In this document: piece by piece, positions 1,023 to 61,197 of the stretch
Position numbering within the stretch: position 1 is the first letter of the stretch
Layout: the number at the start of each line of letters is the position of its first letter
Notes under the pieces: model-generated
Told to the model about the DNA's origin: nothing
The model's database searches: none
Seen by the model: only the letters and a program-made list of their open reading frames with translations
DNA from: Galbibacter pacificus
GTDB lineage: Bacteria > Bacteroidota > Bacteroidia > Flavobacteriales > Flavobacteriaceae
DNA: 64,000 bases
Assembly (NCBI RefSeq): GCF_029603165.1
Contig: NZ_JAQSVC010000001.1
Span: 744,001-808,000, forward strand
Reading direction: 5' to 3'
Made by a program: the position numbers and the translations under genes

Positions 1023-1787
1023 ATGGCAACATATAAGAAAAGAGGTTATAAAAAACCAACCGGTAAGGAGGAAACTTCAGCTCACGACGCGCATAGCACG
1101 ACCGAAGAGGTTTTTAGTACTTTAGACCAAAGTGCTAGTAAGACAGAAGAATGGGTAGCTAGAAACCAAAAAGTAATTCTTGGCGCCATAGGTGTAATTG
1201 CTTTGGTGGTTTTGGGGTTCTTGGCATATCAGCAATTTGTAATGAAGCCAAAAGAGGCAGAAGCTTCCAACGAAATGTTTTTCGCCCAACAATATTTTGA
1301 CGAGGCCGTGAACAGTACAGCCAAAGATTCTTTGTACGGGCTTGCCCTAAACGGTGCAGAAGGAAAATATGGCTTACTTGACATTATTGACAATTACAGT
1401 GGTACAAAAGCCGCTAATTTAGCACATTACAGTGCCGGAATGGCATATTTGAATACCGGAAAATATGATGAAGCTATAAAATATCTTCAAGACTTTGACT
1501 CAGATGACCCTATTTTAGGGGCGCTTGCCAAAGGTGGGATAGGCGATGCTTTTGTTCAATTGGGTCAGGAAAGCGATGCGCTTGAGTATTACGAAAAGGC
1601 CATTGCACATTCTGATAATGCCTTTACCACCCCCAAATTTTTATTCAAATCCGGTGTAATGGCAATGCAAGAAGGCAATAAAGATAAAGCCTTGAAAAAT
1701 TTCAACAGGATTAAAGATGAATATCCAGATTCTGAAGAAGGAAGAACCATTGATATCTATATTGGTAAGGCCGAAACTGCCAAATAA
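1023..1787 (+). CDS. TPR-containing inner-membrane protein (YfgM-like)
   Basis: A 254-residue protein with a charged cytoplasmic N-terminus, one membrane segment at about residues 51-72 (VILGAIGVIALVVLGFLAYQ), and a periplasmic helical region. That region includes TPR-like units such as AHYSAGMAYLNTGKYDEAIKY and AKGGIGDAFVQLGQESDALEYY. The layout matches YfgM-type ancillary proteins, which in other bacteria associate with the Sec translocon and periplasmic chaperones. The exact role here is inferred from architecture only. It lies 66 bp upstream of ribH on the same strand, and this order is common in Flavobacteriaceae as I recall it. Confidence 0.85.
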   Translation: MATYKKRGYKKPTGKEETSAHDAHSTTEEVFSTLDQSASKTEEWVARNQKVILGAIGVIALVVLGFLAYQQFVMKPKEAEASNEMFFAQQYFDEAVNSTAKDSLYGLALNGAEGKYGLLDIIDNYSGTKAANLAHYSAGMAYLNTGKYDEAIKYLQDFDSDDPILGALAKGGIGDAFVQLGQESDALEYYEKAIAHSDNAFTTPKFLFKSGVMAMQEGNKDKALKNFNRIKDEYPDSEEGRTIDIYIGKAETAK

Positions 1788-1853
1788 ATAATCGATTGTT
1801 ATTTCTTTTGTTCTTTATCGACTAAAGGGCAGCAATTAATGTAGAGTATAAAT

Positions 1854-2336
1854 ATGGCTACTGAAAATAAAAATTTATCAGTTTACGATAAAACAACAAT
1901 CCCAAATGCGAAGAACCTTCGGTTTGGGATTGTTGTTTCTGAATGGAACGGCAAAATAACCGAAGGTTTATACAATGGGGCATTAAGTGCCTTGCTCGAT
2001 TGTGGCGCGGTAGTGGAAAATATTATCCGATGGGACGTTCCCGGAAGTTTCGAACTTACGTACGGTGCCAAGAAAATGATTTTAAAGCACGAACCCGATG
2101 CAATTATAGTTATAGGAAGCGTAATTCAAGGAGAAACCAAACACTTCGACTTTGTTTGTAGTGCCGCCGCACAAGGGATAAAAGACCTGAACGTAAAATA
2201 CAATACGCCCGTAATTTTTTGTGTTCTTACAGACAATACCATGCAACAGGCCATAGACAGGAGCGGGGGCAAACATGGAAATAAAGGAACAGAGGCTGCT
2301 ATAGCGGCCATTCAAATGGCAGTTCTTGGAAATTAA
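1854..2336 (+). CDS. ribH: 6,7-dimethyl-8-ribityllumazine synthase
   Basis: Penultimate enzyme of riboflavin synthesis. It condenses 5-amino-6-ribitylamino-uracil with 3,4-dihydroxy-2-butanone 4-phosphate to lumazine in the cytosol, usually as a 60-mer shell. The 160 residues match family length. Seen: FGIVVSEWN near residue 24, VPGSFELTYGAKK (62-74), and the active-site region GSVIQGETKHFDFV with catalytic His97, followed by PVIFCVLTDNTMQQA. No FMN riboswitch is visible upstream and no other rib gene is adjacent, so the gene is probably expressed constitutively with the TPR gene. Confidence 0.97.
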   Translation: MATENKNLSVYDKTTIPNAKNLRFGIVVSEWNGKITEGLYNGALSALLDCGAVVENIIRWDVPGSFELTYGAKKMILKHEPDAIIVIGSVIQGETKHFDFVCSAAAQGIKDLNVKYNTPVIFCVLTDNTMQQAIDRSGGKHGNKGTEAAIAAIQMAVLGN

Positions 2337-2579
2337 CGGTTTCTTCTGTTTTTTTCTTTCATCTTCAACAAGCTCCATGCCCGAACAAAAAAACACAACC
2401 GCATAACAATAGTATAAAAGCTCGTAATGTAAAGCGGTATTGTTAACAATTTTTAGGAGTTAAAAGCCTCGATTCTCTTTGTTTTTAAGTAATTTTGATA
2501 ATTAGCATATAATTATTGTTTTTGATGGGGCGCTTTTTAAATAAAACCATCAAAAATTATAACCTGTAAATATAAAACC

Positions 2580-2873
2580 GTGAGGCTTCCAACACTTTTT
2601 AAACAACGATCTGCAAAAGGGTATAGCTATACCCCAAGATATTACGATGAACGAAAAGAACGTTTGGAGGAGCTTAAAAAAAGTAAGGAGAATAGAAGCA
2701 ACGAAGATTATTTTAAAGGCTACAGAAGGAAAAGCTACCGTGAAGACTGGAAATCGACCCGAAAACCTTCCGTGGACACAAATTCCCGATTTAGATTTAT
2801 TGTAATCCTTATTTTACTGCTCATGTTTGCCATGGTTGCGGTTCGGTATATTAATTTAGATAAACTCTTTTAA
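2580..2873 (+). CDS. Small single-span membrane protein upstream of mutL
   Basis: Ninety-seven residues: a strongly basic and acidic N-terminal half (many K, R, E) and one hydrophobic segment at residues 72-90 (RFIVILILLLMFAMVAVRY). The only plausible start is GTG at 2580. Its TAA overlaps the mutL ATG by one base, which implies translational coupling. I do not recognise a named domain. The position directly before mutL and the conserved-block setting suggest a real gene rather than a chance ORF. Confidence 0.75.
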   Translation: MRLPTLFKQRSAKGYSYTPRYYDERKERLEELKKSKENRSNEDYFKGYRRKSYREDWKSTRKPSVDTNSRFRFIVILILLLMFAMVAVRYINLDKLF

Positions 2874-4708
2874 TGGCGGATATTATTCAGCTTTTACCGG
2901 ATCATGTTGCCAACCAAATTGCAGCAGGAGAGGTGGTACAAAGACCAGCTTCTGTTGTTAAAGAGCTCATTGAGAATGCCGTTGATGCCGGGAGTACTTC
3001 CATAAAATTAATTATTAAAGATGCGGGAAAGACCCTTGTTCAAGTGGTCGACAATGGTAAGGGAATGAGCGAAACCGATGCACGCTTGTCTTTTGAAAGG
3101 CATGCAACCTCAAAAATTAAGGCTGCCGAAGACCTTTTTCAATTGCATACCAAAGGATTTCGTGGTGAGGCACTGGCATCTATTGCCGCAATTGCCCATG
3201 TGGAAATGAATACAAGGCAGGCAGATGAAGAGGTTGGCGTTCAAATAAAAATTGAAGGGAGCACGGTTGTAGGGCAAGATGTTACCGTAATACCGCAGGG
3301 AACTTCCATATCGGTAAAAAATCTTTTTTTTAACATTCCGGCACGCAGAAACTTCTTAAAGTCAGATACAGTAGAGCTGCGCCATATTATCGACGAGTTC
3401 CATCGGGTGGCACTGGCGCATCCAGACATTCATTTTGAATTTTATAATAACGGAAGCGAACTTTTCAACCTTCCGGTTTCTAACTTAAGGCAAAGGATCG
3501 TTCATATCTTTGGAGGAAAAACCAATGAAAAACTGGTTCCCGTTGAAGAAGAAACGGAAGTGGTAAACTTAAAGGGCTTTATTTGCAAGCCCGAGTTTGC
3601 CAAAAAGACCAGGGGCGAACAGTTTTTTTTTGTGAATAACCGGTTTATAAAAAATTCGTATTTGCACCATGCAGTTTGTGCCGCTTTTGAAGGGCTAATC
3701 AAAGAACAGACACACCCGAGTTATTTCCTGTTTCTGGAAGTAGATCCATCGGGGATCGATATCAATATCCACCCTACAAAGACCGAAGTTAAATTTGATG
3801 ACGAACATGCCATGTATGCCATATTGAGGTCGGCTGTAAAGCATAGTCTGGGGCAGTTCAACGTAGCCCCGGTTTTAGATTTTGAACGGGACTCCAATTT
3901 GGATACTCCTTATGGTTATAAATCTAAGAATGTAAATTTTCCAACCGTGGAAGTGGACGCGGACTTTAACCCTTTTGAAAAAGAAAATAAAGGAAAAGTT
4001 TCTGTAAGTTACCCCAAACAAGAACGATTAAACAACAGTTGGGAAAGTTTATATGTTGGGCTGGAAAAAAAATCGGATTTTAGTTCCATTGAATTTGAAT
4101 CAGAAGAAGTTACAGGGTCACTTTTTAACGAAAAAGAAGATGAAGTTTCAACGGCCACGTATCAACTCCATAAAAAATATATTGTTACCACCATCAAATC
4201 CGGGATGGTAATAATTAGCCAGCACCGGGCACACCAAAGGGTGTTGTACGAGCAGTATTTAAAAAATATTACGGTAGACAAGGGCGTGAGCCAACAATTG
4301 CTTTTTCCCTTAAAACTGAATTTTTCGCACACCGAAATAGAATTATTAAAAGAATTAAAGGACAGTTTGGAGAATACAGGCTTTATTTTTTCTAATTTTA
4401 AGGATGATGAAGTGGCGGTAAATGGAATTCCGCTCAATATTTCAGAAAGCGAAGTGGCAATGGTGGTAGATCAGTTATTGTCCGATTTTCAATCGGAAAT
4501 ACCGGAAAGTTCATTCTCGCAAGCCGATATTTTGGCAAAGGCAATGTGTAAGACCTTGGCCGTAAAAAGCGGGGAAATATTAAACGCAGCTTCACAAGAA
4601 GCATTGGTAAACAACCTTTTTGCAACCAAAGACCCCACGGTGTCGCCGTTTAACAAGCCCACATATATAACAATGTCGGTTGAAGAAATAGATAAAAAAT
4701 TTTTATAA
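2873..4708 (+). CDS. mutL: DNA mismatch repair protein MutL
   Basis: GHKL-ATPase that links MutS mismatch recognition to strand removal. Seen: ELIENAVDAGS (31-41), DNGKGM (60-65) and GFRGEAL (95-101) of the ATPase domain, then a low-complexity linker (about 350-430) and a C-terminal dimerisation domain; 611 residues in all. The C-terminal endonuclease motifs are degenerate. The site corresponding to DQHAxxExxxxE reads SQHRAHQRVLYE (449-460), and the CPHGRP position reads SPFNKP (591-596). This MutL therefore probably lacks the metal-dependent nicking activity of the family. The start overlaps the stop of the preceding small gene. Confidence 0.96.
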   Translation: MADIIQLLPDHVANQIAAGEVVQRPASVVKELIENAVDAGSTSIKLIIKDAGKTLVQVVDNGKGMSETDARLSFERHATSKIKAAEDLFQLHTKGFRGEALASIAAIAHVEMNTRQADEEVGVQIKIEGSTVVGQDVTVIPQGTSISVKNLFFNIPARRNFLKSDTVELRHIIDEFHRVALAHPDIHFEFYNNGSELFNLPVSNLRQRIVHIFGGKTNEKLVPVEEETEVVNLKGFICKPEFAKKTRGEQFFFVNNRFIKNSYLHHAVCAAFEGLIKEQTHPSYFLFLEVDPSGIDINIHPTKTEVKFDDEHAMYAILRSAVKHSLGQFNVAPVLDFERDSNLDTPYGYKSKNVNFPTVEVDADFNPFEKENKGKVSVSYPKQERLNNSWESLYVGLEKKSDFSSIEFESEEVTGSLFNEKEDEVSTATYQLHKKYIVTTIKSGMVIISQHRAHQRVLYEQYLKNITVDKGVSQQLLFPLKLNFSHTEIELLKELKDSLENTGFIFSNFKDDEVAVNGIPLNISESEVAMVVDQLLSDFQSEIPESSFSQADILAKAMCKTLAVKSGEILNAASQEALVNNLFATKDPTVSPFNKPTYITMSVEEIDKKFL

Positions 4709-8592: not shown

Positions 8593-8705
8593 GAATAGGT
8601 TTATAAGGTTGAAAGTATGTAAAGTTAAAAGTCATTGAAAAAGATCCCATAAACCGAACCATATCCCAATACGATAATTACAGAATATCAAGCCCAGCTT
8701 AATTA

Positions 8706-10262
8706 TCAGCTATTTCCTTTTTTCCTTTTTTTGAATTTGCTGTACCCATACCAAAGCGCAAGAGCAACCAGGAAATAAACCAAATAAGAGCGGGGTTTGC
8801 CCTCACCACCAACAGTAGTGAACACGCGATCCCAACGAACTTTGTTCCAGAAAGGCCCACTAGCATTGCTGTCCCAACTAAACCATATAAAAACAGGTTT
8901 TCCAACAACATGATCTTCAGGTACATACCCCCAATAGCGGCTGTCTTCTGATGCATGGCGGTTATCTCCCATCATCCAGTAATAATCCTGTTTAAAAGTA
9001 TAGGTTGTGGCAGGTTTGTTGTTAATGGAGATTTGGCTTCCGTTTACTTGAACAGTATTCCCTTCATAACGCTCAATAATGCGTTTATACAGTGGTAATA
9101 CATCTAGGTTGAGTTCCACGGTTTTTCCTTTCTGTGGAATGTAAATGGAACCGTATTGATCTTGATTCCATGGGCATTTGCTTGATTGAGGAAAAACAGG
9201 TGCCATTTTAGAGGCTCCTTTGGATTCTATGTTGCGTTTAACACTAATTACATTCGGGTTGTCCTTTAGCATATCTGCTGCTTTCTCTGTCATAGCAGAA
9301 AAATAATAAATCCCTTGTTTTACTTGGCCAAAACTTCCCGTTACCCCATAACGTTCGTACATGTACCTCGGCGTAAGGTTGCCTTTGGCCTGTACATAAT
9401 AAGAGTATTGCGGCTTGGCCCTGTCGGGTAACTCCAGGCGCTTGTTGTTTATGTATACATAGCCATCTTTTATAGAAAGGGAGTCTCCGGGAAGCCCAAC
9501 GCAACGTTTGACATAGTTTGATTTTTTGTCGATGGGTTTGCGGATTTTTCTATGTGTAATTTTAAAAAATTGTTCAACTGTATCTGTTGGCCAACTAAAA
9601 ACGACAATGTCGTTTCTTTTAATTTTTTGCAAGCCGGGAAGCCTAAAATAGGGCAATTGTGGCTTGTTTATGTACGATTTTGTGTTTAGTACGGGAATTG
9701 TATCGTGTACCATTGGAAAAGCAACAGTTGTCATGGGTGTTCTGGCACCATAATGAAACTTGCTCACAAATAAAAAATCGCCTACCAATAATGTTTTTTC
9801 CAAAGATGAAGTGGGGATAACATAAGGTTGCATAAAATAGGTGTGAACAAGAGTTGCCGCAACAATAGCAAAAAGGATAGAGCTTACCCATTCTCCCGTA
9901 GCTGTTCTGGGCTTGAGGTCCCTGTCTTCTATATAAGTAGCATCTAAAGCATAGTTTACGTAAAAAATATAAAAACCAAGGGTTAAAATTACAAGCCAAG
10001 TATCTGCGGTACTGTTCCTGCCAAAACTCCTAATGGTTTCCACCCAAACCACGGGAATCATGATCAGGTTTATAATCGGTATAAAAAGCAGGATGACCCA
10101 CCACCATGGGCGGTTGATTATTTTCATTAAAATAACGGCGTTGTATATGGGAACAATTGCTTCCCAAGGTTTTCTCCCTGCTTTTATGTATAATTTCCAT
10201 GTAGCCAGAAAATGAATTACCTGGATTACCAGAAAAAAAATAAACCATTGTGTCATTGTCAT
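8706..10262 (-). CDS. lepB: Signal peptidase I with N-terminal multi-span membrane domain
   Basis: Removes signal peptides from Sec-exported preproteins at the periplasmic face. At 518 residues it is longer than typical LepB. Residues 1-110 form about four membrane segments of DUF5684 type (including PWWWVILLFIPIINL), then comes the peptidase. Seen: the serine motif PTSSLEKTLLVGD (150-162, catalytic Ser153), the lysine motif YVKRCVGLPGDS (catalytic Lys252), and the late GDNRHASEDSRYWG box, followed by a second membrane segment near the C-terminus. An insert between box B and box D enlarges the periplasmic part. The fused membrane domain is usual in Bacteroidota. Confidence 0.94.
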   Translation of the reverse strand: MTMTQWFIFFLVIQVIHFLATWKLYIKAGRKPWEAIVPIYNAVILMKIINRPWWWVILLFIPIINLIMIPVVWVETIRSFGRNSTADTWLVILTLGFYIFYVNYALDATYIEDRDLKPRTATGEWVSSILFAIVAATLVHTYFMQPYVIPTSSLEKTLLVGDFLFVSKFHYGARTPMTTVAFPMVHDTIPVLNTKSYINKPQLPYFRLPGLQKIKRNDIVVFSWPTDTVEQFFKITHRKIRKPIDKKSNYVKRCVGLPGDSLSIKDGYVYINNKRLELPDRAKPQYSYYVQAKGNLTPRYMYERYGVTGSFGQVKQGIYYFSAMTEKAADMLKDNPNVISVKRNIESKGASKMAPVFPQSSKCPWNQDQYGSIYIPQKGKTVELNLDVLPLYKRIIERYEGNTVQVNGSQISINNKPATTYTFKQDYYWMMGDNRHASEDSRYWGYVPEDHVVGKPVFIWFSWDSNASGPFWNKVRWDRVFTTVGGEGKPRSYLVYFLVALALWYGYSKFKKRKKGNS

Positions 10263-59199: not shown

Positions 59200-60750
59200 C
59201 TATTTTTTGTTCGGTAATTTTACCGGGTTTTTACCTTTCATCCTATCATAGACCAAATCTCCCAAGAATTTTGCAAATGGGCCTATATTCTGCCTTACAC
59301 TGGCCTCTTCCAATGCCTGCATATATTCATCCCGCTTTTCTACGGGAATTACTGTCCACGGATAGCCACCGGAGGCCAGCATTGCATTCATAAGGAATCT
59401 GCCCATACGACCGTTACCATCCATATAGGGGTGGATAAAAACAAAGACAAAATGGCCCAGCACGGCCCGTACGGAAGCCTCGGGCTCTTCCTCCAATAAT
59501 TCAAATAAGATGGGCATGGCATCTACATTTAAGGGAACATGCTTGGAATTACCGATGTACACCTGGTTATTGCGGTAACCGGAAAGGTCGGAAGCCTTCA
59601 ACAGACCTGCCACTACACTTGGGTCGAACAGTTGCCTGTACCATGCGGCATGGTCCTTATCGACCTGTGTTCCCGAATTTGCTCCTTCCAATATGGCTTT
59701 GATGCTCTGCTTTACGGATTGGAAAGCCTGATAATAACCCCGGGCGGCCATGGCATCCCGTTGCTTCCTGTCCCCTTCGTTTTCCTCGGTGTCCCATTCC
59801 CCCGAACTCACTTTTTGAATCAACTCAGGGGTCACACGATAGCGCTCAATTGACAGCGAATGATAGGCATCCGTTATATATATATCGTCCACGTCCTTCA
59901 TATAGGATTCGTGGTCGGTCTGTATGCCAGGGGCTTTCGGGAAATTGGCCATTACCGCTTCACGCATCTGTTGCCATATCAGGCGTATACGGTTGGCATA
60001 GGGAGAACGTTCCCTTGGCGACAATTTCAATTCCAACCTGGTATCAAAAGGATCTTCCTCCCGGATGTCATAATCGGCCTGTTTGAAGGTTTCCACAATC
60101 TGGTCTGCTATTCTATCACGTTGAATGTTACGAAAAGCCCCGGCCAATCGGCCGGCCAAGGTGGTATGCCCATTTTCCAGTAGTATGGGTAGTAATTCCG
60201 AAGCATCCCGAATCAGGGACAGCGTGGTACGGGCATCGATGGCATTATTTGTATACAACGATGCTCCCGTGTAAATCAGGGAGGTCTGTAAATTATACAT
60301 GCGGATGCCTTCTTCTACTACGGTCTGCTCTGAAGGAGGGATATCGGTCTTCAAATTGAACAGGGAGGTGTTATGGGGTAACGGAGTGGGCTTGTTATTG
60401 CCCTTGGGCGATCGTATAAGCAATTGTTGTGGTACCGAACGATTACCGGCATGAAATAACAAAGATTGGTCTGCCGAAAGCGACCAATCGTCTCCATATT
60501 TTTGATTGAGAAACCGTGCTATAAACTCCCAATAAGAACTATACCAAGCCGTGGTTTCACCATCTTTCTCATTGGGGTCCGTGGCAATATACCATCCTTT
60601 GGTGACTTCCTTTAAAAAACCGTTTTTGACAAGCAGTTGACGGTGCTTTACATTTGGGATCTCATCAGTATGAATTCCTACTATACCCTGGTCCTGTAGT
60701 CCTTTCAGAAAGGTGAGGGCCTCTACGAATCGTTCTCTTGGGGTTGCCAT
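59200..60750 (-). CDS. Fic-domain AMPylase-like protein with N-terminal AbiEi-like module
   Basis: The 516 residues start with a winged-helix-like segment (VKHRQLLVKNGFLKEVTKGW, 34-53) and a mixed domain (SADQSLLFHAGNRSVPQQLL, 92-111) that resemble type IV antitoxin AbiEi. The C-terminal Fic domain has a complete catalytic loop, HPYMDGNGRMGR (440-451). An inhibitory-helix-like SLSIER (298-303) fits the [S/T]xxxE[G/N] pattern except for the last residue. Fic enzymes transfer AMP or other nucleotide groups to target proteins. The gene is visibly GC-richer than its flanks, which suggests transfer. Four 24-bp-spaced repeats lie just upstream and may be its autoregulatory operator. The Fic call is certain; the AbiEi-like call is tentative. 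Confidence 0.9.
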   Translation of the reverse strand: MATPRERFVEALTFLKGLQDQGIVGIHTDEIPNVKHRQLLVKNGFLKEVTKGWYIATDPNEKDGETTAWYSSYWEFIARFLNQKYGDDWSLSADQSLLFHAGNRSVPQQLLIRSPKGNNKPTPLPHNTSLFNLKTDIPPSEQTVVEEGIRMYNLQTSLIYTGASLYTNNAIDARTTLSLIRDASELLPILLENGHTTLAGRLAGAFRNIQRDRIADQIVETFKQADYDIREEDPFDTRLELKLSPRERSPYANRIRLIWQQMREAVMANFPKAPGIQTDHESYMKDVDDIYITDAYHSLSIERYRVTPELIQKVSSGEWDTEENEGDRKQRDAMAARGYYQAFQSVKQSIKAILEGANSGTQVDKDHAAWYRQLFDPSVVAGLLKASDLSGYRNNQVYIGNSKHVPLNVDAMPILFELLEEEPEASVRAVLGHFVFVFIHPYMDGNGRMGRFLMNAMLASGGYPWTVIPVEKRDEYMQALEEASVRQNIGPFAKFLGDLVYDRMKGKNPVKLPNKK

Positions 60751-60788
60751 GTTGTTGAATTTACTTTTTCAATCTTTGCTTTCGGGCT

Positions 60789-60872
60789 AAAATTAGCTTT
60801 TTATATTGTGCCAAAATTAGTAAACATAAATGTACTAAAATTAGTAAACATAAGTGTGTAAAAATTAGTAAA
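60789..60872 (-). promoter_or_regulatory. Four 24-bp-spaced AAAATTAG boxes upstream of the Fic gene
   Basis: AAAATTAG occurs at 60789, 60813, 60837 and 60861, exactly 24 bp apart. The middle two continue as TAAACATAA and the last as TAAAT. The array starts 39 bp upstream of the Fic start codon. Regular spacing near two helical turns (and a bit) suggests cooperative binding of a repressor, plausibly the winged-helix part of the Fic protein itself. Confidence 0.65.
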
Positions 60873-60920
60873 TTTTTGGAAATAGGACACTAACGAATAT
60901 GCCTTCAAATGGCAACAAAA

Positions 60921-60950
60921 AAAACCAGTAAAATACATTTTTACTGGTTT
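60921..60950. terminator. Hairpin AAAACCAGTAAAA/TTTTACTGGTTTT
   Basis: A perfect inverted repeat with a loop of about four bases, flanked by A and T runs, in the gap between the response-regulator and Fic genes. It can act as a bidirectional rho-independent terminator, for example stopping read-through into the Fic promoter from upstream. Confidence 0.6.
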
Positions 60951-61197
60951 TCATTAATTTACGTATTAAATGATTTTATTTAATACCCTATTTGTCGGGG
61001 TGGCAGAACTAACTTACCAAACCACAATATTTTAATTACCAGACACTTATGTTATTTCAATAAAACGAGGTAACCGAATAGGTAACCTTTGCCTCGATTT
61101 TATTCGTGAAAACAAAGATATATGAATATCTTAAACTAAAAAACAATAAATAGGGTCAAATTTCATTATTACTCAAAGTTGAAAATAATAACAGCAC
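60951..61197. other. Intergenic region with inverted repeat and tRNA-3'-end-like motif
   Basis: No gene is supported here. GTCGGGGTGGCAG (60994-61006) looks like the start of the reverse complement of a tRNA 3' end, but the T arm does not follow. At 61059-61104 arms AATAAAACGAGG and CCTCGATTTTATT enclose two direct copies of GGTAACC (61069-61075, 61081-61087). These features, next to the GC-rich Fic gene, may mark the edge of an acquired segment. Confidence 0.4.

Follow-up and report, generated by a model that had tools for sequence, protein, structure and literature searches.

The type IV antitoxins AbiEi and Rv2827c bind 23-base-pair (bp) repeats in their own promoters (PMC7319586), sites that go with autorepression (PMC3985639; PMC7319586). 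Among Fic enzymes, CccR of Yersinia pseudotuberculosis carries a helix-turn-helix (HTH) domain, represses its own promoter and has an N-terminal SxxxEG helix (PMC9755527); in CbFic2 of Coxiella burnetii, DNA binding by the HTH alters Fic activity (PMC10628234), and for SoFic an antidote, AS1, lies downstream (PMC12249575). AbiEii/AbiEi and Fic/RelB are given as separate pairs in the excerpt of PMC8562856, and the excerpt of PMC2701414 contains neither COG5340 nor AbiE. The focus of this report is a gene that brings such modules together, located on a stretch of 64,000 nucleotides (nt) from Galbibacter pacificus (contig NZ_JAQSVC010000001.1, positions 744,001 to 808,000), the whole of which is called the window. 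Its product, AbiEi-Fic, combines an AbiEi-like fold with a Fic domain, and the gene (fic) is directly preceded by an array of 24-bp direct repeats. We consider it likely that the AbiEi-fold domain binds this head-to-tail array and represses its own gene, that it is fused to a self-inhibited Fic enzyme, and that the gene is a lone, mobile unit.

The gene is a minus-strand open reading frame (ORF), whose start is in line with MATPRERF, a beginning conserved among the relatives. The only domain that Pfam recognizes in the 516-residue protein is Fic (PF02661, E 1e-10, residues 390-458), the catalytic loop of which, HPYMDGNGRMGR, is intact, as the preliminary description had stated, and the nearest solved sequences are those of FICD (E 5.7e-15, residues 221-497). 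Also as described there, the gene is richer in guanine and cytosine (0.473) than its flanks (0.343 in the 5 kb to the left, 0.382 in the 3.2 kb to the right); the value for the window is 0.382. The gene and its N-terminal features are:

59200..60750, minus strand: AbiEi-like/Fic protein, 516 amino acids, lone gene (ORF, Pfam, alignment with relatives)
60046..60750, minus strand: AbiEi-fold module, residues 1-235, made up of a winged helix and a C-terminal domain (structural model with matches to 6y8q and 1zel; no Pfam AbiEi match at sequence level)
60625..60651, minus strand: predicted recognition helix H3, residues 34-42 (from the model's secondary structure; in the full set, residues 34 and 38 follow differences between repeat units most closely)

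In a first full-length model, the wing (residues 48-70) had a predicted local distance difference test score (pLDDT) below 50, and the VIA-align matches were all Fic chains. After this poor wing, the N-terminal fold was resolved by a separate model of residues 1-241 alone, built from the window sequence and 40 relatives (mean pLDDT 93.6). A Foldseek search of the PDB with this model ranked AbiEi of S. agalactiae first (6y8q_A, E 8.9e-5, probability 1.00, TM scores 0.40/0.46, root-mean-square deviation (rmsd) 7.2), followed by a second AbiEi chain (E 3.2e-3) and, in third place, by Rv2827c (E 0.01, TM scores 0.56/0.48). VIA-align placed Rv2827c at the top (Z 10.3, rmsd 4.5, 221 residues aligned), then AbiEi (Z 8.5, rmsd 5.3, 166 aligned), both ahead of nucleotidyltransferase-like proteins of H. 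pylori (Z 6.8). The large rmsd would fit an altered angle between the two domains. The AbiEi-like fold proposed earlier thus stands, and the module is not of an unrelated kind, but it extends to about residue 235 rather than ending at residue 140. A profile search of PDB sequences with the N-terminus returned a single match (E 0.61), which was judged to be due to chance. The secondary structure of the model (H4-20, E25-27, H28-30, H34-42, E46-50, E53-56) parallels the order H1-S1-H2-t-H3-S2-W1-S3 of the AbiEi winged helix (PMC3985639), which makes residues 34-42 the predicted recognition helix.

Upstream of the start codon, four 24-bp direct repeats fill positions 60777-60872, with a hairpin beyond them:

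60849..60872, minus strand: putative operator unit 1, TTTACTAATTTTTACACACTTATG
60825..60848, minus strand: putative operator unit 2, TTTACTAATTTTAGTACATTTATG
60801..60824, minus strand: putative operator unit 3, TTTACTAATTTTGGCACAATATAA, containing TAATTTTG at 60812-60819
60777..60800, minus strand: putative operator unit 4, AAAGCTAATTTTAGCCCGAAAGCA, ending 26 nt ahead of the start codon (all four units from repeat search and weight matrix)
60920..60952, minus strand: terminator-like hairpin with a T run, upstream of the array (2 sites, one per strand of one hairpin; shuffles mean 0.2)

The word AAAATTAG lies at 60789, 60813, 60837 and 60861, and therefore recurs in exact 24-bp steps, in agreement with the four boxes first reported, although the full unit measures 24 nt and not 8. 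A repeat search recovered three 24-nt copies at a spacing of 24, and across the upstream 220 nt the best period (15-40) was 24, with a score reached by 0/200 dinucleotide shuffles (p 0.005). The word itself is not enriched in the window (11 observed vs 11.03 expected), so that the count of boxes was rejected as evidence; the non-random part is the exact spacing. All 3 exact CTAATTTT-N16-CTAATTTT pairs of the 4.04-Mb genome belong to this array; when up to 2 mismatches are allowed, the genomic pair counts of 13 and 20 show no excess over a reversed control (16 and 20). We considered and rejected a wider regulon of tandem boxes in the Galbibacter genome, since the exact tandem is limited to the fic promoter region. 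The terminator-like hairpin faces the gene (60952-60920), which suggests a promoter at or adjoining the array, and judged from these elements the fic promoter probably lies there. The octamer TAATTTTG fits TAnnTTTG, which we take to be the -7 element of Bacteroidota; an embedded TAnnTTTG was sought in every array across the loci and was not found consistently.

The array recurs in front of close and distant homologues, a check that the preliminary description had proposed for close ones. We retrieved 55 related loci and excluded L081, which is partial, and L085, whose 36-residue match is due to chance, leaving 53 loci, which together with the window provide 54 upstream regions, 47 of them distinct. 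Within the range of 15-40 bp, the optimum is a period of 24 in 39/47 and of 23 in 4 from a Puia-like clade; it takes some other value in L043, L047, L049 and L084, four members of a near-identical clade whose repeats are degenerate. Shuffles are beaten at p ≤0.02 in 38/47, namely in 36 of the 39 with period 24 and in two of the four with period 23; the period-24 upstreams that fall short (L044, L046, L051) belong to the degenerate group. A weight matrix, seeded by hand and trained with no reference to spacing, was run with a minimum distance of 18 between sites; 125 of the 137 gaps between neighbouring sites are exactly 24 bp. In a count of lags over 53 loci, duplicates kept, lag 24 scores 137, against at most 2 for each other lag from 15 to 39. 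The units are direct and contiguous, and number approximately 2-9 per array.

Further relatives extend this picture. Matches in plasmid records that cover at least 80% of the query numbered 75, and 15 of the 40 listed were retrieved. Ten of these, together with three relatives from viral contigs, form a set of distant relatives in which the period is 24 in 12/13 and 23 in the remaining case, and in which 12/13 reach a shuffle p ≤0.01; relatives at 57-60% identity have period 24 in 5/5, and of 17 further loci, 13 were readable, with 24 in four, 23 in six and other periods in the rest. Pooling full-length relatives only, 80 upstream regions reduce to 71 distinct ones, with period 24 in 58, 23 in 9 and an optimum elsewhere in 4; at a score cut of 0.58, 57/71 pass. 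The full-length relatives come from Bacteroidota and from plasmids of alpha-, beta- and gammaproteobacteria, their N-terminal identity to the window protein falls as low as 33% (L107), and an N-terminal match is present in 23/395 genomes of the phylum. Unit sequences are unrelated across lineages (for example TTTACTAATTTTAGTACATTTATG in the window and ATTAAAACCTATAAATGATATGAC in Pseudoalteromonas) and the pitch is constant.

The pitch of 23 bp is found at L072, L074, L075, L077, L104, L119, L122, L123 and L126, which fall into Puia-like, gammaproteobacterial and Bacteroidales-like groups, and judging from these sequences a shift of the pitch by one bp would seem to have taken place more than once.

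If transcription begins upstream of the array, the repeats would be transcribed and could exert their effect at the RNA level, where a repetitive 5' leader might govern translation or transcript stability. Among the four leaders folded, that of Pseudoalteromonas is clearly more stable than its shuffles (z -3.3, 1/200) and that of the window somewhat so (z -1.7, 11/200), but those of L063 and L066, which have strong arrays, are no better than shuffles (65/200 and 122/200), and no common structure per unit was seen in the folded leaders. Moreover, the unit drifts between lineages at a rigid pitch, which suits a protein on the DNA helix, and we regard a role in RNA as very unlikely.

Fic genes without this N-terminus provide a control, in which 0 of the 18 readable upstreams (24 loci) show a significant period of 23 or 24, and five of the remaining six, read after orientation, include none with such a best period. 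Other periods beat shuffles at 0.05 among the 18 in L008, L024 (31), L021 (34), L020 (16, p 0.05) and L023 (40), with p = 0.055 for L024 when 260 nt are used; L008, L014, L021 and L024 belong to a second AbiEi-like/Fic family, and are thus not neutral controls. Among neighbouring genes in the loci of the AbiEi-Fic family, 3/268 have 23/24 repeats, and these three are divergent genes starting 283-325 nt from the fic start, whose upstream regions overlap the fic array. Standalone AbiEi genes are too few to serve as a control (PF17194 in 3/119 genomes, PF13338 in 3/119); none of four such loci reaches the 0.58 cut, and L155 has a best period of 24 at 0.54.

These controls also bear on the idea that the array serves another regulator, or that the carrier elements use it as an iteron or for recombination, with the AbiEi-like domain acting otherwise. 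Many copies do lie on plasmids or beside recombinases, serine-recombinase-like ORFs being present in 14/53 loci, and in 22/53 fic has a divergent ORF that begins no more than 600 nt away, so that the array could be shared with, or also act on, the divergent gene; in addition, L060 has an array without a fic ORF behind it. However, the pitch recurs on chromosomes and on unrelated plasmids, in different phyla and with unrelated units, and apart from this extra copy the array lies directly before the AbiEi-Fic gene and other genes of the loci are without it. We therefore hold this explanation to be improbable. The additional L060 array, at 8631-8726, is a second copy of the array of 24-bp units that no fic ORF follows; it may be left over from a copy that was lost or displaced.

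Whether the protein reads its repeats was approached by covariation in 52 arrays whose 24-bp period is clear, where differences between units were compared with stretches of the protein after removal of whole-protein distance. The best 12-residue window is 29-40, a value reached by 0/300 label shuffles, which ignore relatedness. When columns are taken singly, 38 and 34 rank highest; they are predicted to lie on H3, one helical turn apart. Windows of 20 residues tie between 215-234 (0.304) and 27-46 (0.302). After thinning at 90% identity (n=40), residues 29-40 still rank first. The covariation of the recognition helix supports a protein that would read its own repeats, short of proof; given the results of stricter thinning (see below), a residue-level recognition code is not claimed.

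The second half of the protein comprises the following features:

59200..60045, minus strand: helical linker plus Fic domain, FICD-like, residues 236-516 (sequence and structural matches to FICD)
59842..59859, minus strand: class II-like inhibitory motif S298-L-S-I-E302-R303 (aligned with TVAIEG of FICD)
59398..59433, minus strand: Fic motif HPYMDGNGRMGR, His440 to Arg451

The Fic fold is clear from the model, residues 271-508 of which match FICD with Z 20.6 over 209 aligned residues, and HPxxDGNGRxxR, which fits the signature HPFx[D/E]GN[G/K]R of Fic AMP transferases, is complete in 71/71 relatives. The N-terminal inhibitory motif of class II Fic proteins is defined as [S/T]xxxE[G/N]. In AbiEi-Fic, SLSIE precedes the Fic motif in 71/71 relatives, followed by R in 45 (window included), G in 22, K in 3 and Q in 1, and the built-in inhibitor is more likely this class II-like SLSIE(R/G) helix of the Fic part than the AbiEi part. 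AMPylation and toxicity are suggested by the Fic motif.

In the scheme that we propose, in which DNA binding, repression, AMPylation, toxicity and the trigger are steps that we infer, each 24-bp unit would bind one AbiEi-type domain via recognition helix H3, and neighbouring protomers would stand head to tail at a fixed pitch along the array. The array would overlap or adjoin the promoter, such that the protein could repress its own gene, and the Fic part would be restrained by the SLSIE(R/G) helix that it contains; on release or accumulation of the protein it would probably AMPylate a target, as a toxin or as an anti-phage effector. A more radical possibility is that the array itself is the antitoxin, with the bound row of protomers inactive and the active Fic freed by loss or sequestration of the DNA, for example when a plasmid is lost or the chromosome comes under attack by a phage, and with the number of repeats setting the threshold. 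This would make the gene a one-gene addiction or defence module, but we think it unlikely. The preliminary description had read the locus as a self-regulated system without a separate antitoxin. Autoregulation through the array, with DNA binding predicted, is well supported by comparison with the arrays of relatives; a toxin that needs no separate antitoxin is the less supported part.

Several observations weigh against autorepression by an AbiEi-type domain coupled to a working Fic enzyme. The structural match is moderate, since best Z values of 7-8 are usual in VIA-align without a clear match, as compared with 10.3 and 8.5 here. Pfam AbiEi models match 0/21 N-termini of the family, and the PADLOC AbiEi model is faint (E 0.028 for L102 only, among 3 proteins scanned). 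Known AbiEi sites are inverted, whereas the repeats here are direct and contiguous. In the first set, 9/47 upstreams are not above shuffles at 0.05 (the degenerate clade and two Puia-like copies), p5482 of B. thetaiotaomicron reaches a shuffle p of 0.07, some Bacteroidales copies keep about two units, and 4/71 pooled upstreams have no 23/24 optimum. The covariation weakens as well. After thinning at 80% (n=34), the value of 29-40 is reached in 30/300 shuffles, residues 219-238 overtake it, and columns 38 and 34 drop to fourth and fifth place; thinning at 70% (n=20) abolishes the effect for windows, although columns 38 and 34 rank first. In the set of the 37 nearest relatives, windows in 117-142 outperform 29-40, which comes fifth, and in the 15 most distant ones the 29-40 signal is absent. 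Finally, compared with each of the 33 other members of alignment A1, the window protein is missing four residues; the gap lies at 59520/59521, at a short tandem duplication between the flap and the catalytic helix, and with this loss ahead of the helix the activity of the window copy is uncertain and may be altered.

Autorepression by a lone gene is also consistent with the surroundings. No neighbour is conserved in the 53 loci, which differ from one to the next, and no AbiEii-type toxin gene recurs as a partner among them, a DUF1814 profile search not having been made. A co-directional ORF of at least 90 amino acids within 150 nt downstream is present in 4 of the 48 loci with an intact fic, and these are of three kinds. 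Downstream ORFs of 25-89 amino acids number 28 in 27/48 loci; as candidates for a small antidote gene they were rejected, because they recur only in the near-identical clade (12 loci) and in one pair. The lack of a recurring small ORF fits the view of a lone gene, and an antidote may still lie elsewhere. Recombinases stand beside the gene on p5482 and on another plasmid, and the overall picture is that of a mobile lone gene, often amid conflict or mobile-element neighbourhoods.

In the clade L043-L058 and L082-L084, the gene lies between two serine-recombinase-like ORFs in many near-identical copies from several genera, which are probably a recent mobile element. On an Aminobacter plasmid (L148), tandem Fic genes are found at 104-1225 and 1501-3039, the second belonging to the AbiEi-Fic family, with the array between them.

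Some neighbours are conflict genes. A TOTE primase-helicase follows 95 nt downstream in L036 (Pfam AEP-TOTE, 1.7e-82), with a similar start in L033, and L071 has a divergent GmrSD-like gene (GmrSD_N, 2.4e-29). The protein may be an anti-phage abortive-infection effector like SoFic, for which autoregulation would be mere housekeeping, a reading compatible with autorepression through the array. The PADLOC SoFic model matches residues 291-503 (E 1.2e-18), perhaps through the shared Fic domain alone, but neighbours vary by locus, the scan with A1 yielded 3 relatives in viral contigs, and the 4 matches in phage records cover the Fic part only, at most 20% of the query. Such a role is possible, although we lean against it.

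The second AbiEi-like/Fic family (L008, L014, L021, L024 and L140-L146; about 492 amino acids) follows the same plan at a different pitch. Its N-terminus matches the PADLOC AbiEi model at E ~1e-5 (two proteins scanned), and direct repeats of about 31 bp lie upstream, with a period of 30-32 in 8/11 loci, 34 in two and 19 in one, and shuffle p ≤0.05 in 6/11; seven of 19 long plasmid matches were retrieved.

Domain anatomy, array, conserved pitch and intact motifs of the AbiEi-Fic gene are computational observations, and its individual parts are already known. We recognized no AbiEi-Fic fusion with a direct-repeat array in the open-access literature, judged by titles, abstract openings and passages. 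From Bacteroidota to three proteobacterial classes, the pitch of 23/24 bp is rigidly maintained even though the unit sequence becomes unrecognizable, which makes an unusually clean natural series of protein-operator co-evolution, and dozens of matched protein-array pairs render the AbiEi recognition code, the cooperativity of direct repeats and the link between DNA binding and Fic activity testable.

In its Fic fold and in the putative inhibitory motif aligned to FICD, the protein resembles FICD and class II Fic proteins. To our knowledge, FICD and SoFic are without an AbiEi fold. With AbiEi and Rv2827c the protein shares the fold of residues 1-241, and their 23-bp sites are about the size of one unit here; unlike them, its domain is fused to Fic, and its repeats, of 23/24 bp in 67/71 upstreams, are direct. 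CccR likewise joins a Fic enzyme to a DNA-binding domain, and its self-repression is a precedent, but its HTH is C-terminal, its operator consists of two inverted 10-bp boxes 26 bp apart, and it is an effector of the type VI secretion system (PMC9755527). CbFic2 also differs in its C-terminal HTH and is described as acting on histone H3, with no operator array noted in the excerpt (PMC10628234). AbiEi folds would not be confined to antitoxins of nucleotidyltransferases, and can join a different effector in a single chain.
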